This document shows positions 903 through 63,025 of a DNA stretch of 64,000 nucleotides, in pieces. The notes beneath the pieces were generated by a model, which ran no database searches, was not told the DNA's origin, and worked only from the letters and a program-made list of their open reading frames with translations. This stretch comes from Halomarina salina (lineage in GTDB: Archaea; Halobacteriota; Halobacteria; Halobacteriales; Haloarculaceae). Numbering within the stretch: position 1 is the first letter of the stretch; each line of letters opens with the position of its first letter. Made by a program: the position numbers and the translations under genes. Location of the stretch: assembly GCF_023074835.1 (NCBI RefSeq), contig NZ_JALLGW010000002.1, forward strand, positions 496,001 to 560,000, read 5' to 3'.

Positions 903-1944
903 CTAGTCCGTCAGCGCGGCGATGACCTGCTCCTCGCGGTCGCGGCCGGGGTCGTACTCCTCGCCGGTCAGGCCACGCTCGCGGTGAGACCGTGCGGTCT
1001 CGCGGACCGCCGCCTCGGGCGGCGTCGAGTCCCAGCCTAACGCGTGGAGCTTCCCGGTCGCGGCGAGCGCCGGCGACGGCGTGTAGAGCGGGAAGTCGTC
1101 GGGTGCGAGGTCGCTGCGCGCGAGGTCGTGTTCGCTGGCGTGGACCACCTCGACGTCCGCGTCGAGCGCCTCGGCCGCCAGGTCGAGCGAGCGTTCGAGC
1201 GTCATCGCGTCGCGGTCGGCGACGTTCGTGAGAGCGAAGCTCTCACGAGCCAACCGGAACGCGGAGCGTTCCGGTGACGTTGTACGCCTCGCCCGGCTCC
1301 CCCTCCTCGGCGACGATGCGGAGCGCACGGGCCACGTCGCCGACGTACGCTCGGTGGAACAGGCCCCCGCCGTCCCCGGGCACGAGCACGCGGTCGTACT
1401 CCGCGACGCGGTCCACCCAGTAGGCGTAGCGCTCGGTGTAGTCGTGGGGGCCGTAGACGAGCATCGGCCGGACGGCCATCGCGTTCACGCCGTCGGCCGC
1501 GGCCTCGAAGACGGCGCGGTCGCCCTCGGCCTTCCGCGGGCCGTACGTCTCCATCGACTCGTCGTCTGCCTGCTCGTCGGTGCAGTCGTGCAGGGGCGTC
1601 TCGTCCTCGCGGAGCGGGACGTCCCCCGCTGCGTAGGCGCTGCCGCTGGAGACGTAGACGTAGGCGTCGCAGTCGGCGAACGCCTCGGTCGCCGCGCGGA
1701 CCTGTCGCGGGTGGTACGCACAGAGGTCAATGACGACGTCCGGGTCGGCCGTCTCGCGGGCACGGTCGAGCGTCTCGCGGTCGTTCCGGTCGCCCTGGAC
1801 GTTCGAGACGCGCTCCTCCTCGGCGAACGGGTCGTCGCTCTCGCCACGGGTGACGGTCGTCACGTCGTAGCCGCTGGCGAGCAGTTGCGCGACGGTGTGG
1901 CGGCCGATGAACCGCGTCCCGCCGACGGTGAGTGCGGTGGGCAT
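903..1944 (-). pseudogene. Epimerase/dehydratase paralogue, frameshifted by a palindromic insertion
   Basis: The N-terminal part (from ATG at 1944) is an ordinary extended SDR protein with GGTRFIG at residues 8-14, YGPRK and RPMLVYGPHDYTE. Reading stays in frame to GEAYNV, then enters a 55-base segment (1227-1281) and stops at 1243 after a few unrelated residues. The rest of the protein (ADRDAMTLERSLDLAAEAL onward, ending at 903) continues in another frame. Removing 55 bases joins GEAYNV to ADRDAM and gives a single 328-residue protein that aligns with the neighbouring paralogue, which has GEAYNV at the same place. The gene is therefore interrupted, not mis-called. Whether a truncated product of about 233 residues is made or still works is unknown; the NAD-binding half is intact. 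Confidence 0.85.
1221..1281. mobile_element. Short bipartite palindromic insertion with 6-bp direct repeats
   Basis: Two hairpins lie side by side. The first has 8-bp perfect arms GTGAGAGC / GCTCTCAC around a GAA loop (1228-1246). The second has 10-bp perfect arms ACCGGAACGC / GCGTTCCGGT around a GGA loop (1253-1275). They are separated by GAGCCA. The block is flanked by GACGTT at 1221-1226 and 1276-1281, which looks like a 6-bp target duplication. Unit plus one repeat is 55 bases, which breaks the reading frame of the host gene. It encodes nothing, so it would have to be moved by enzymes elsewhere, like a REP- or MITE-type element. Similar hairpin pairs occur near 42314-42363 and 62896-62946. 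Confidence 0.75.
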
Positions 1945-41494: not shown

Positions 41495-42001
41495 TCAGTA
41501 GGTCACGGAGAGGTCGTCTCGCTGGAGACTGTTCGTCGTGTAGTCGACGAGTCCGACCATCTCGCGGACGGTGAGGAAGTTCGTCGTCTCGTTCGAGCCT
41601 TCCGGGAGGTGGTATCTGATACCTCCGTCCGAGTACTCCGCGACGATGGCCTTGTGCAGGGCTGGATGCTCGTCGAGCAGCGTCCTCCGGACCTCGTCCA
41701 GGTCTTCGTGTGCGTCGTCGTACTTGCGCTCCAGAATCGCCCGCCGTATCTCGGCCTGTGCATCTATCGCCACGTCCTCGGGTCGGAGGGCGACCGGACG
41801 CCCGAAGTCGTTCGCGACGAAGACGACGAGCGCACCGTCGAACGAGTCGTTCGCCCGGCGAACGTCGCTGGCGACGGCGCCGACGTCGAAGAACTCGACG
41901 TCGTCTCTCCGACCACGCAATCTCGCCATCTCCGCGCGCAGGAGCCGGTACTGCTCGTTCAGGTCGTCGGTCGCGGCGTACTCCTCGGTCCAGTCCCCCA
42001 T
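41495..42001 (-). CDS. Uncharacterised soluble protein
   Basis: A 168-residue acidic protein with helical segments (LNEQYRLLRAEMARLRGRRDDVEFF, AIDAQAEIRRAILERKYDDAHEDLDEVRRTLLDEHPALHKAIVAEY) and a C-terminal mixed part (GIRYHLPEGSNETTNFLTVREMVGLVDYTT). The first helix may form a coiled coil. Not recognised. It is flanked downstream by the membrane gene and upstream by the large palindrome cluster. ATG start MGDWTEEYAATDD. Confidence 0.65.
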   Translation of the reverse strand: MGDWTEEYAATDDLNEQYRLLRAEMARLRGRRDDVEFFDVGAVASDVRRANDSFDGALVVFVANDFGRPVALRPEDVAIDAQAEIRRAILERKYDDAHEDLDEVRRTLLDEHPALHKAIVAEYSDGGIRYHLPEGSNETTNFLTVREMVGLVDYTTNSLQRDDLSVTY

Positions 42002-42078
42002 GGCCGAGCGTGACCGTCCGAACGAATAGAGCCACTGATAGACACGGATGCTGGTCTCGTGCGGTGCGGTCGGACACC

Positions 42079-42374
42079 GTACCGCGAACGAGTGTACCGA
42101 GTGAGCGAGGTGACTGAACCGTCGAGGGAGCGGAGCGACCGAGGTGGTGAGGGAGTCCTTTTGTCGCCAGAAATCTCCGATTTCTGGCTACTAACCAGAA
42201 CGGCGGAGCCGTTCTGGTGATGCGGTCAGAGCGCGGCGCGCTCTGACTGCCTGCAGACTCGCGGCGCGAGTCTGCGATGGTCGAGCTTTTGCACTGCCGG
42301 GGTCGCTGCGCGCGTGGCGGTGAAGCCGCCACGACGTGCGGTTGCGGGCCTCCGGCCCGCAACCCGACCCCGGC
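42079..42374. repeat. Large palindrome array filling the 42002-42392 intergenic region
   Basis: A GTACCGCGAACGA...GTGAGCGAGG stretch (42079-42110) and GAGCGGAGCGA (42128-42138) are followed by six short-loop hairpins. In order they are: 42167-42187 (9-bp arms, loop TCC), 42194-42218 (11 bp, GGA), 42225-42247 (10 bp, GGC), 42253-42275 (10 bp, GGC), 42314-42332 (GTGGCGG/CCGCCAC) and 42341-42363 (GTTGCGGGCC/GGCCCGCAAC, TCC). An outer stem GCCGGGGTCG (42296-42305) / CGACCCCGGC (42365-42374) encloses the last two. No gene is present. It lies just beyond the 3-prime end of the nucleotidyltransferase gene, so it would be its transcribed tail and may act as terminator or RNA-stability element. Confidence 0.75.
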
Positions 42375-42392
42375 GCGGGCATAAAAGGTCGT

Positions 42393-43349
42393 CTAGCAGA
42401 GCCGCGAGTACGACCCGACCAGCGAGTGGGTGAGGTCCTTGCCGTGGACCTCGGCGTGTTCGTCGACGATGGAGTCGACGATGTCGCTGTCCTCGATGGT
42501 CGCCTCGGGGAAGACGATGCTGTCGGTGAGCGAGACGTCCGTCAGTTCCGCGCCCGGCATGACGTGGACGTTGTCCCCCAGGTCGCAGTTCTCGACGACG
42601 GCGTCGTCGGCGATGCGGTTCTCGCCGTCGAGCGCCCACGCGACGGCCTCGCGGTAGGCGTCGGGCGTGCCGATGTCGAACCACGGCTCCTCGAACGAGT
42701 AGGCGTACACGGAGTCGTTGGCCTGGAGCCACTCGATGTACCAGCCCGGTTCGTCGGGGTTGTTGTCCCCCGAGAGGTACTCCGAGAACCGCACCGACTC
42801 CTGGGGGAACGCGTAGCAGCAGATGGAGACGAGCGTGCTCTTGGGGTCCTCGGGTTTCTCCTGGAAGTCGACGACGCGGTCGCCGTCGAGCGCGACCAGC
42901 CCGTAGGACTTCGCCTTCTCGCGGGAGCCGACGTCGTAGGCCGCGATTGTCGGCGCGTCCTGCTCCTCGTAGAAGTCGAGGAAGGTGCCCATCTCGAAGC
43001 CGATGAGGTTGTCACCGGCGACGACGAGCAGGTCGTCGTCGACCTCCTCGCGCTCGACGAGCTGGGCGAGCGCGCCGACGACGCCGAACTTCTCGGTCTC
43101 GGCGCTGGTGTCCTCGATAGAGAGTTCCGCCTTCTCGTAGTTCTTGTCGGCGATGTGCTCTTCGAAGGCGGGCGCGAACCGCTCGTTCGTCGAGAGGTAG
43201 ACCGTGTCGATCCGGTCGTCGGTCTCGAAGTCGGAGAGGAGTCTGTCGATGACCGTCGAGTCGCCGACGGGGAGGAGCATCTTGGGGCGGTGGCGCGTGA
43301 TAGGCCAGAGACGGGTGGCGTACCCACCCGCGAGAACGACCGCGTGCAT
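42393..43349 (-). CDS. Sugar-phosphate nucleotidyltransferase
   Basis: Makes an NDP-sugar from a sugar 1-phosphate and NTP. The N-terminal nucleotidyltransferase fold starts MHAVVLAGGYATRLWPITRHRPKMLLPV (nucleotide-binding loop GG-x-ATRL and the Lys of RPK). It continues with VVAGDNLIG (metal Asp), VDFQEKPEDPKS, YIEWLQAN and WFDIGTPDAYREA. The C-terminal 70 residues are hexapeptide-repeat beta-helix (NCDLGDNVHVMPGAELTDVSLTDSIVFPEATIEDSDIVDSIVDEHAEV). The pattern fits glucose-1-phosphate thymidylyl/uridylyl transferases of archaeal surface glycosylation. The 318-residue start is set by homology; open sequence upstream is antisense-like. No sugar-pathway neighbours. Confidence 0.92.
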   Translation of the reverse strand: MHAVVLAGGYATRLWPITRHRPKMLLPVGDSTVIDRLLSDFETDDRIDTVYLSTNERFAPAFEEHIADKNYEKAELSIEDTSAETEKFGVVGALAQLVEREEVDDDLLVVAGDNLIGFEMGTFLDFYEEQDAPTIAAYDVGSREKAKSYGLVALDGDRVVDFQEKPEDPKSTLVSICCYAFPQESVRFSEYLSGDNNPDEPGWYIEWLQANDSVYAYSFEEPWFDIGTPDAYREAVAWALDGENRIADDAVVENCDLGDNVHVMPGAELTDVSLTDSIVFPEATIEDSDIVDSIVDEHAEVHGKDLTHSLVGSYSRLC

Positions 43350-43477
43350 GTGTGGCGCGACAGTTGCCGCCGTGATAGGCGTTGCGCCTTCCACGTCGAC
43401 CCGGCGACAGACCCTCCCGAACCGCCCACTCTCACCGCCCGAACACGTATATCGTCGGACGTGGTACCGGACCTCGT

Positions 43478-43768
43478 ATGCGCGCCGAGGAGGAGACGAC
43501 GCGCCAGCGTATCGCCGACCGCCTCCGCGACGACCCCGCGCCCGCCGGTGCCCTCGCCCGCGAGTTCGGCGTCCGGACGGCGACGGTGTTCTCGCACGTC
43601 GAACACATCTCGAAGTCACTCGACCCGAGCGACGAGCAACTGCTGGCCGCGCCGCCGGAGTGTCGGGACTGCGGGTTCACCGACTTCGACGACCTGATCA
43701 ACCGCCCCTCTCGCTGCCCGGAGTGCAAGAGCGAGAGCGTCGACGAACCGGTGTTCACCATCGAGTAG
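43478..43768 (+). CDS. HTH + Zn-ribbon transcriptional regulator (COG3357-like)
   Basis: A 96-residue predicted regulator. A winged-helix domain occupies the first 55 residues (TRQRIADRLRDDPAPAGALAREFGVRTATVFSHVEHISKSL), followed by a C-terminal zinc ribbon with CRDCGF and CPEC. This HTH-ribbon fusion is an archaeal family of unknown target. A TATATC-containing box (43444-43452) is about 29 bases before the ATG, so a leaderless transcript is likely. Divergent from the nucleotidyltransferase gene, a possible target. Confidence 0.85.
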   Translation: MRAEEETTRQRIADRLRDDPAPAGALAREFGVRTATVFSHVEHISKSLDPSDEQLLAAPPECRDCGFTDFDDLINRPSRCPECKSESVDEPVFTIE

Positions 43769-62749: not shown

Positions 62750-62946
62750 GGAGACGCGAGCGGAGCGAGCGTCTCCGAACAGACGAACGGCGACCAGCGG
62801 GAGCCGTGAGTAGTGAGGCGCGCGCGGGTCGCGCCTCGGATAGCCGAACGAGGAGCGGAGCGACTCGTGAGGAGTAGCGCGGTTCGGACCGAGCGGGTTG
62901 CGGGCCGCTGGCCCGCAACCGAATGTCGTGGCGACTCCGTCGCCAC
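62750..62946. repeat. Hairpin repeat cluster after the Get3-like gene
   Basis: Five hairpins occur. 62750-62776 has GGAGACGC/GCGTCTCC arms and an 11-base loop GAGCGGAGCGA. 62815-62837 has GAGGCGCG/CGCGCCTC arms. 62848-62868 has ACGAG/CTCGT arms and the identical GAGCGGAGCGA loop. 62896-62920 has an 11-bp stem GGTTGCGGGCC/GGCCCGCAACC around GCT. 62928-62946 has GTGGCGAC/GTCGCCAC around TCC. The last two, read on the minus strand, repeat the hairpin pair at 42314-42363. The 276-base gap contains no gene. Confidence 0.7.
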
Positions 62947-63025
62947 GCACAGCGAGGGAGAACCGCGAACGGTGAGCGGGGAGCGCGAGCGACCCGCGGA
63001 TGGCGAGACGCGAGCAGTAGAAGGC

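Follow-up and report, generated by a model that had tools for sequence, protein, structure and literature searches.

Putatively mobile two-hairpin units inserted in a terminator-like repeat as the probable origin of a dense hairpin cluster in a haloarchaeal intergenic spacer

INTRODUCTION

How does a single haloarchaeal intergenic spacer come to hold six near-perfect hairpins and an outer stem within some 200 bases? The cluster lies in a window of 64,000 nucleotides, the whole stretch of DNA analysed here, which is part of a 4.46-Mb haloarchaeal genome. An earlier note on this DNA had proposed either nested insertions of one element family or a structured RNA tail of the nucleotidyltransferase transcript. 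Our analysis indicates that the spacer is probably best explained as a composite, in which probably mobile units have been inserted in a terminator-like element.

RESULTS

The spacer (42002-42392) separates two genes, both on the minus strand. The nucleotidyltransferase ORF (42393-43619; PF00483, E = 3.6e-38) is the longest frame, with a probable internal start, and its stop codon at 42393 abuts the element described below; the next gene (41495-42001, 168 aa) has no Pfam match. The first four hairpins, given on the plus strand, are h1 (42166-42188; 10-bp perfect arms, loop TCC), h2 (42194-42218; 11-bp perfect arms, loop GGA), h3 (42225-42247) and h4 (42253-42275), the latter two both with 10-bp perfect arms and a GGC loop. 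Hairpin h5 (42313-42333) can be drawn either with 8 bp and a TGAAG loop or with 9 bp, one G.T pair and a GAA loop, and h6 (42340-42364) has 11-bp perfect arms and a TCC loop. An outer stem, GCCGGGGTCG/CGACCCCGGC (42296-42305 and 42365-42374), surrounds h5 and h6. The earlier note had thus correctly placed the six hairpins and the stem enclosing the last two. Its figure of 9-11 bp for most arms fits five hairpins, whose arms are of 10-11 bp, h5 alone having a short perfect arm; it had also located the cluster properly, but the structured unit starts at 42164 rather than 42167.

The claim that such density cannot be due to chance was borne out. Counting only hairpins whose arms pair perfectly over 10 bp or more around a loop of 3-5 nt, the window contains eight, as against zero to two in each of five Markov-simulated windows, and five of the eight fall inside these 200 bases. 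RNA folding of 42160-42392 gave z scores of -12.3 for the minus strand and -11.4 for the plus strand, a stability reached by none of 200 shuffles. Together, the simulated windows and the shuffled folding rule out a chance origin.

When the spacer was used as a query in the same genome, it retrieved a copy (L003, C1:2222756-2222901) devoid of both h1-h4 and h5-h6, in which the counterparts of 42076-42163, 42278-42305 and 42365-42391 run contiguously. A second empty copy was found at L010. The locus can therefore be read as a base element split into three parts, all given on the plus strand. The left part (42076-42163, GAACGAG...GGTGAGGGAGTCCTTTTG) ends in a T-tract at 42159-42162 and recurs at several positions in the genome. 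The middle part (42280-42312, GTCGAGCTTTTGCACTGCCGGGGTCGCTGCGCG) carries a plus-strand T-tract at 42287-42290 and the 5′ arm of the outer stem (42296-42306), and matches both L003 and the orthologous spacer of genome G052. The right part (42365-42391) holds the 3′ arm (42365-42374) and a minus-strand T-tract (AAAA at 42383-42386); it is 100% identical to L003 and lies 4 nt from the nucleotidyltransferase stop codon. In the orientation of the window, the element thus reads ...GGTGAGGGAATCCTTTTGGTCCAGCTTTTGCCC-GC stem-...AAAAGGTGG-stop codon. The stretch from 42076 to 42150 is degenerate and rich in GAGCGA (..GCGAACGAG..GAGCGAGGTGACTGAACC..), and is repeated in copies of the element.

Among 22 copies of the base element from different genera, 15 have their AAAAGG end 4-8 nt away from the stop codon that closes a long ORF; the other 7 are farther from a stop or have no long ORF by the same test. 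The element places T-tracts directly downstream of stop codons, on both strands, which is why we read it as a bidirectional terminator. In Haloferax volcanii, termination at T-stretches is established, and some 3′ ends are associated with hairpins (PMC7237163). The base element resembles such T-stretch terminators in its T-tracts and its position just past stop codons, and differs from them in that it is repeated, is bidirectional in layout and has a GC stem. A role in transcription termination, possibly in both directions, thus appears reasonably likely from sequence features.

The six hairpins form three pairs, each belonging to a non-coding unit of about 52-59 bases with two hairpins. Unit A (42164-42222, plus strand, 59 nt) has the form TCGCC-h1-GGCTACTAACC-h2-GGTGATG, and the same junction is found at L002, at L004 and in other genomes; the unit is missing at L003 and L010 and in G051 and G053. 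Unit C (42223-42279, plus strand, 57 nt; CGGTC-h3-GACTGCCTGC-h4-GCGATG) has the architecture of A with different stems and directly follows the GATG with which A ends. G052, G056 and other genera likewise have A and C in tandem. Unit B (42313-42364, plus strand, about 52 nt) reads CGTGGCGG-h5-CCGCCACG-ACGTGC-GGTTGCGGGCC-h6-GGCCCGCAACC, its ends being exact to within a few bases only, in particular on the left. It occupies the loop of the outer stem, which is the base element's GC stem, and its removal in silico produced an 11-bp stem identical to that of the orthologous G052 spacer. A second B copy is present in the window in reverse orientation (62896-62947, minus strand), in a spacer near an ORF end. 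Other copies were found at L007, L008 and L056, with a decayed one at L057, and 23 of 96 genomes have members of the family. The G052 spacer, which matches in other respects, lacks the unit. The window and L007 copies suggested that hairpin tips might be the invariable insertion point of B, which proved not to be general in 11 copies.

A and C share an architecture and B is of a different family, so that the spacer holds at least two families. The suggestion of nested insertions of one element family is thus upheld as regards successive insertion, but the cassettes are not of one family, and the outer stem is part of the host terminator-like element and not of an inserted unit.

The order of events can be followed downstream of the orthologous nucleotidyltransferase gene in Halomarina congeners, which include Halomarina oriensis and H. 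rubra. The spacers of G051 and G053 contain the bare base element, that of G052 has the base element with A and C, and the present genome has the base element with A, C and B; the element is absent from the orthologous spacers of G054-G057. This series provides direct evidence for stepwise growth of the array.

The general form of unit A is TG|TCGCC-hairpin-GGCTGCTAACC-hairpin-GGTGATG. A search with a linker-only pattern found it in Halorubrum, Halolamina, Halalkalicoccus, Halorientalis, Halocatena, Halobium, Haloarchaeobius, Halomarina and strain YIM A00010, and the reversed-pattern control gave no matches. YIM A00010 contains about 20 unit copies or more. Relatives elsewhere, whose lack the earlier note had listed among the observations that would speak against it, were thus looked for and found. 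The linker contains TGCTA (TAGCA on the minus strand) in 73 of 93 units and TACTA, giving GTAG, in about 6, copy numbers of units being lower bounds to be read as at least these values. In searches that did not require it, TG directly preceded 64 of 65 units, at target sites such as GGTG, TTTG and GCTG. The flanks of the 65 units show no consistent target duplication, 58 of them sharing 0-1 nt and the maximum being 3. Unit A has an imperfect terminal inverted repeat of 7 nt (TCGCCAG/CTGGTGA). Tandem units occur in several genomes, each later one following the ATG end of the previous unit. Lone CCAGAAATC-loop-GATTTCTGG matches in other genera, considered as candidate A units, were assigned to further two-hairpin families with other linkers.

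These families were seen at L092, L094, L099, L100, L136 and L139, examples being a CCAGAA..TTCTGG hairpin followed by TGTGCGAACGAGACGC.., and GGTCGCCAGAC..GTCTGGCGGGCAGCCAGAA... Some of their members adjoin, or lie within, sequence resembling TnpB genes. At L156, in genome G044, a two-hairpin unit lies within a Y1 transposase (TnpA) gene.

Copies of unit A are also found in protein-coding genes. Removal of the TCGCC...GATG segment at L115 restored a GNAT acetyltransferase ORF, and removal of A at L122 restored a TnpB ORF, both confirmed by Pfam; a closely similar restored ORF was obtained at L238. At L119 the unit constitutes an in-frame addition of 19 aa to an AMP-binding enzyme. In a multicopy protein family (..GVW^CKPC..), A occupies the same codon in every copy seen in two genomes, those of Halocatena pleomorpha (L134, L135, L199, L204 and L217) and YIM A00010 (L225, L228 and L233); L134, the locus tested, had no Pfam match.

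Independently, the window offers a second case of an interrupted gene. A sister two-hairpin unit of 55 nt (1226-1280, plus strand), with feet TCG.../...GGTGACGT and linker CGAGCCAACC, interrupts a minus-strand epimerase-like ORF. Its deletion in silico gave a single ORF (PF01370, E = 1.1e-29), and a paralogous reading nearby has no break at that position.

Right ends of TnpB elements with the arrangement GAGGGTG|A|GGGCTT were observed in several genera (L042, L045, L103, L130, L178, L181 and L192), others being empty. As omega RNA in Halobacterium is made from the TnpB right-end region (PMC12558985), their occurrence would fit the idea that A is a TnpB omega-RNA scaffold, or else a piece of an IS605 right end that has persisted in terminators. 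The predicted A-free right end, AAGCCCCACCCTC, was then found in 56 of 293 genomes, with a TnpB-like coding sequence nearby in 7 of 12 fetched loci. Such A-free ends are common and run through the site with exact continuity, which marks A as inserted here as well and not as an integral part of the right end. Copies in terminators also lack the remainder of a right end (hairpin plus GGGTAGTT tail), and the copy in the window has neither a right-end tail nor tnpB. An origin of A as omega-RNA scaffold or right-end remnant is thus very unlikely.

The hairpins of unit A were compared between copies. An equal-length alignment of 31 units showed 96 cells changed on both sides of a stem and 4 changed on one side, with double changes in 14 of 20 stem pairs, and pairing was lost when the partners were slid. 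Because this alignment had been chosen partly by hairpin quality, the analysis was repeated on units found by linkers only. In 59 such distinct units, 747 of 780 inner positions (95.8%) were Watson-Crick paired, versus 27% after shuffling, and 13 were G.T pairs; 96 of the 118 hairpins were perfect. The loops are mostly GAA, TTC, GGA or TCC, which are GNA triloops on one strand or the other and very stable in DNA. RNA helices usually change via G-U pairs. Stems that change on both sides by Watson-Crick pairs, and hardly ever by way of G-U, thus speak for a structure in DNA and not in RNA, and we take it that the hairpins act, or are maintained, at the DNA level.

This pattern bears on the proposal that the hairpins are a functional 3′-UTR, small RNA or terminator cluster of the nucleotidyltransferase transcript under RNA selection. 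The element does begin 4 nt past the stop codon, which keeps the RNA tail of the earlier note conceivable, the folding z score is about -12, and hairpins precede some 3′ ends in H. volcanii (PMC7237163). However, the hairpins are not specific to that transcript; the same gene in congeners is followed by the bare element or lacks it, and the same units interrupt protein genes. Folding is equally good on both strands, the stems covary in Watson-Crick fashion without G-U intermediates (4 of the 100 standard changed cells), unlike typical RNA helices, and Rfam 15 has no match in the window at gathering thresholds. We consider an RNA-level function of the cluster improbable.

Perfect arms and double changes restricted to Watson-Crick pairs would also be produced by arm-to-arm copying. 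Arrays might accordingly grow by replication errors, i.e., template switching and palindrome correction, together with tandem duplication, and with no transposase. Tandem arrays are indeed common, C lies directly behind A, and the window's B is located in the loop of a pre-existing stem. However, B is not inserted at hairpin tips as a rule, and a discrete copied unit is needed to account for linkers that are the same in different genera, for the constant TG junction and for new sites in unrelated genes. Growth by replication errors is thus unlikely, if somewhat less so than an RNA-level function.

DISCUSSION

We are highly confident of the description itself, namely, that a repeated, stop-adjacent base element has received A, C and later B, that relatives of A and B are dispersed, and that A lies after TG with no duplication. 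The units have two hairpins with constant unpaired feet and a constant short target, leave no duplication and contain no gene, and so lend themselves to mobilization in trans by an enzyme that reads hairpins in single-stranded DNA. The occupied and empty sites make it rather likely that they have been moved in this manner.

The base element came first. A was added to it, then C behind the 3′ end of A, and later B within the GC stem. In the scenario that we propose, the units would be minimal non-autonomous transposable elements, whose enzyme, supplied in trans, would recognize the hairpin pair in single-stranded DNA through the unpaired feet (TC-, -TGCTA- and -GATG). In the manner of IS200/IS605 (Y1) and REP transposases, it would cut the donor after TG and insert the unit directly behind a TG in the target; these transposases use hairpins with unpaired feet and a short target and cause no duplication (PMC3116915, PMC8266576). 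As A and C end in ..ATG, they carry a new target along, so that tandem arrays can grow. Units would be tolerated in the base element because they are located between its T-tracts, any effect on transcripts being secondary.

That the mobilizing enzyme is of the Y1 type in particular is a tentative proposal, which we would sooner doubt than adopt. No match to Y1_Tnp (PF01797) was found in G052, G054 and G056, three Halomarina genomes that hold units; IS605-type TnpA is present in other genomes. The enzyme may have been lost from the Y1-free Halomarina genomes, or may be of another kind. IS605 left ends near TnpA genes were considered as parents of A and bear no resemblance to it. A transposase substrate would not usually have stems that diverge as widely as these do from unit to unit. 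Finally, A recurs at the same sites, in the base element and in TnpB right ends, and its spread may thus be partly vertical or by composite copying.

The nearest haloarchaeal category to these units are SMRs. SMR-A and SMR-B of Haloquadratum walsbyi are about 80-110 bp long, with prominent inverted repeats and a highly conserved sequence (PMC3119063). They are similarly non-coding, make no target duplication, often lie within IS605-type elements and are mobilized in an enigmatic manner; the short imperfect terminal repeat of unit A is a further likeness. In contrast, A, C and B are about 51-61 nt long, lack prominent terminal repeats, consist of a pair of distinct hairpins whose stems diverge, and are found in terminators and genes as well. 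PATEs in their terminal-only 52-bp forms (PMC3119063) have two palindromes, a length of about 52 bp and a conserved terminal oligonucleotide, with neither duplication nor gene. However, PATE palindromes match IS605 ends, whereas A is unlike IS605 left ends and is inserted inside right ends. As the units are not IS605 ends, we do not class them as PATEs.

REPINs, or REP dimers, with their RAYT transposases (PMC3116915, PMC3733652, PMC8266576) share with our units the paired palindromes, single-stranded DNA hairpins, tandem clusters and compensating stem changes. A, C and B differ in having no conserved GTAG/CGTC tag, and their two hairpins are not inverted copies of one repeat. In view of this and of the lack of a RAYT-like gene in the three host genomes searched (G052, G054 and G056), we do not class them as REPINs. 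Nor do they correspond to classical MITEs, with terminal repeats of a known transposon and a target duplication, since no consistent duplication was found. Double-hairpin elements of fungal mitochondrial DNA, for which an RNA-mediated route was proposed (Paquin et al. 2000, as cited in PMC2800124), similarly have two hairpins and a short linker, no flanking duplication and insertions in genes; they are mitochondrial, from unrelated genomes, and the comparison is one of descriptions. It is conceivable, though we would not expect it, that haloarchaea host an undescribed superfamily of two-hairpin mobile elements of about 50-60 nt, defined by their feet rather than their stems, with their own TG target and a shape-reading single-stranded DNA enzyme that is neither IS200/IS605 nor REP.

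For hairpin clusters in haloarchaeal spacers, this work provides an anatomy, a target rule (after TG, with no duplication), empty sites and an evolutionary series. The elements can disrupt genes or add amino acids in frame, and some TnpB right ends, the omega-RNA region, hold such insertions. Right ends with and without A offer a natural experiment on the amount of additional structure that an omega RNA can accommodate. The question raised is which enzyme recognizes a hairpin pair whose stem sequences can change freely.
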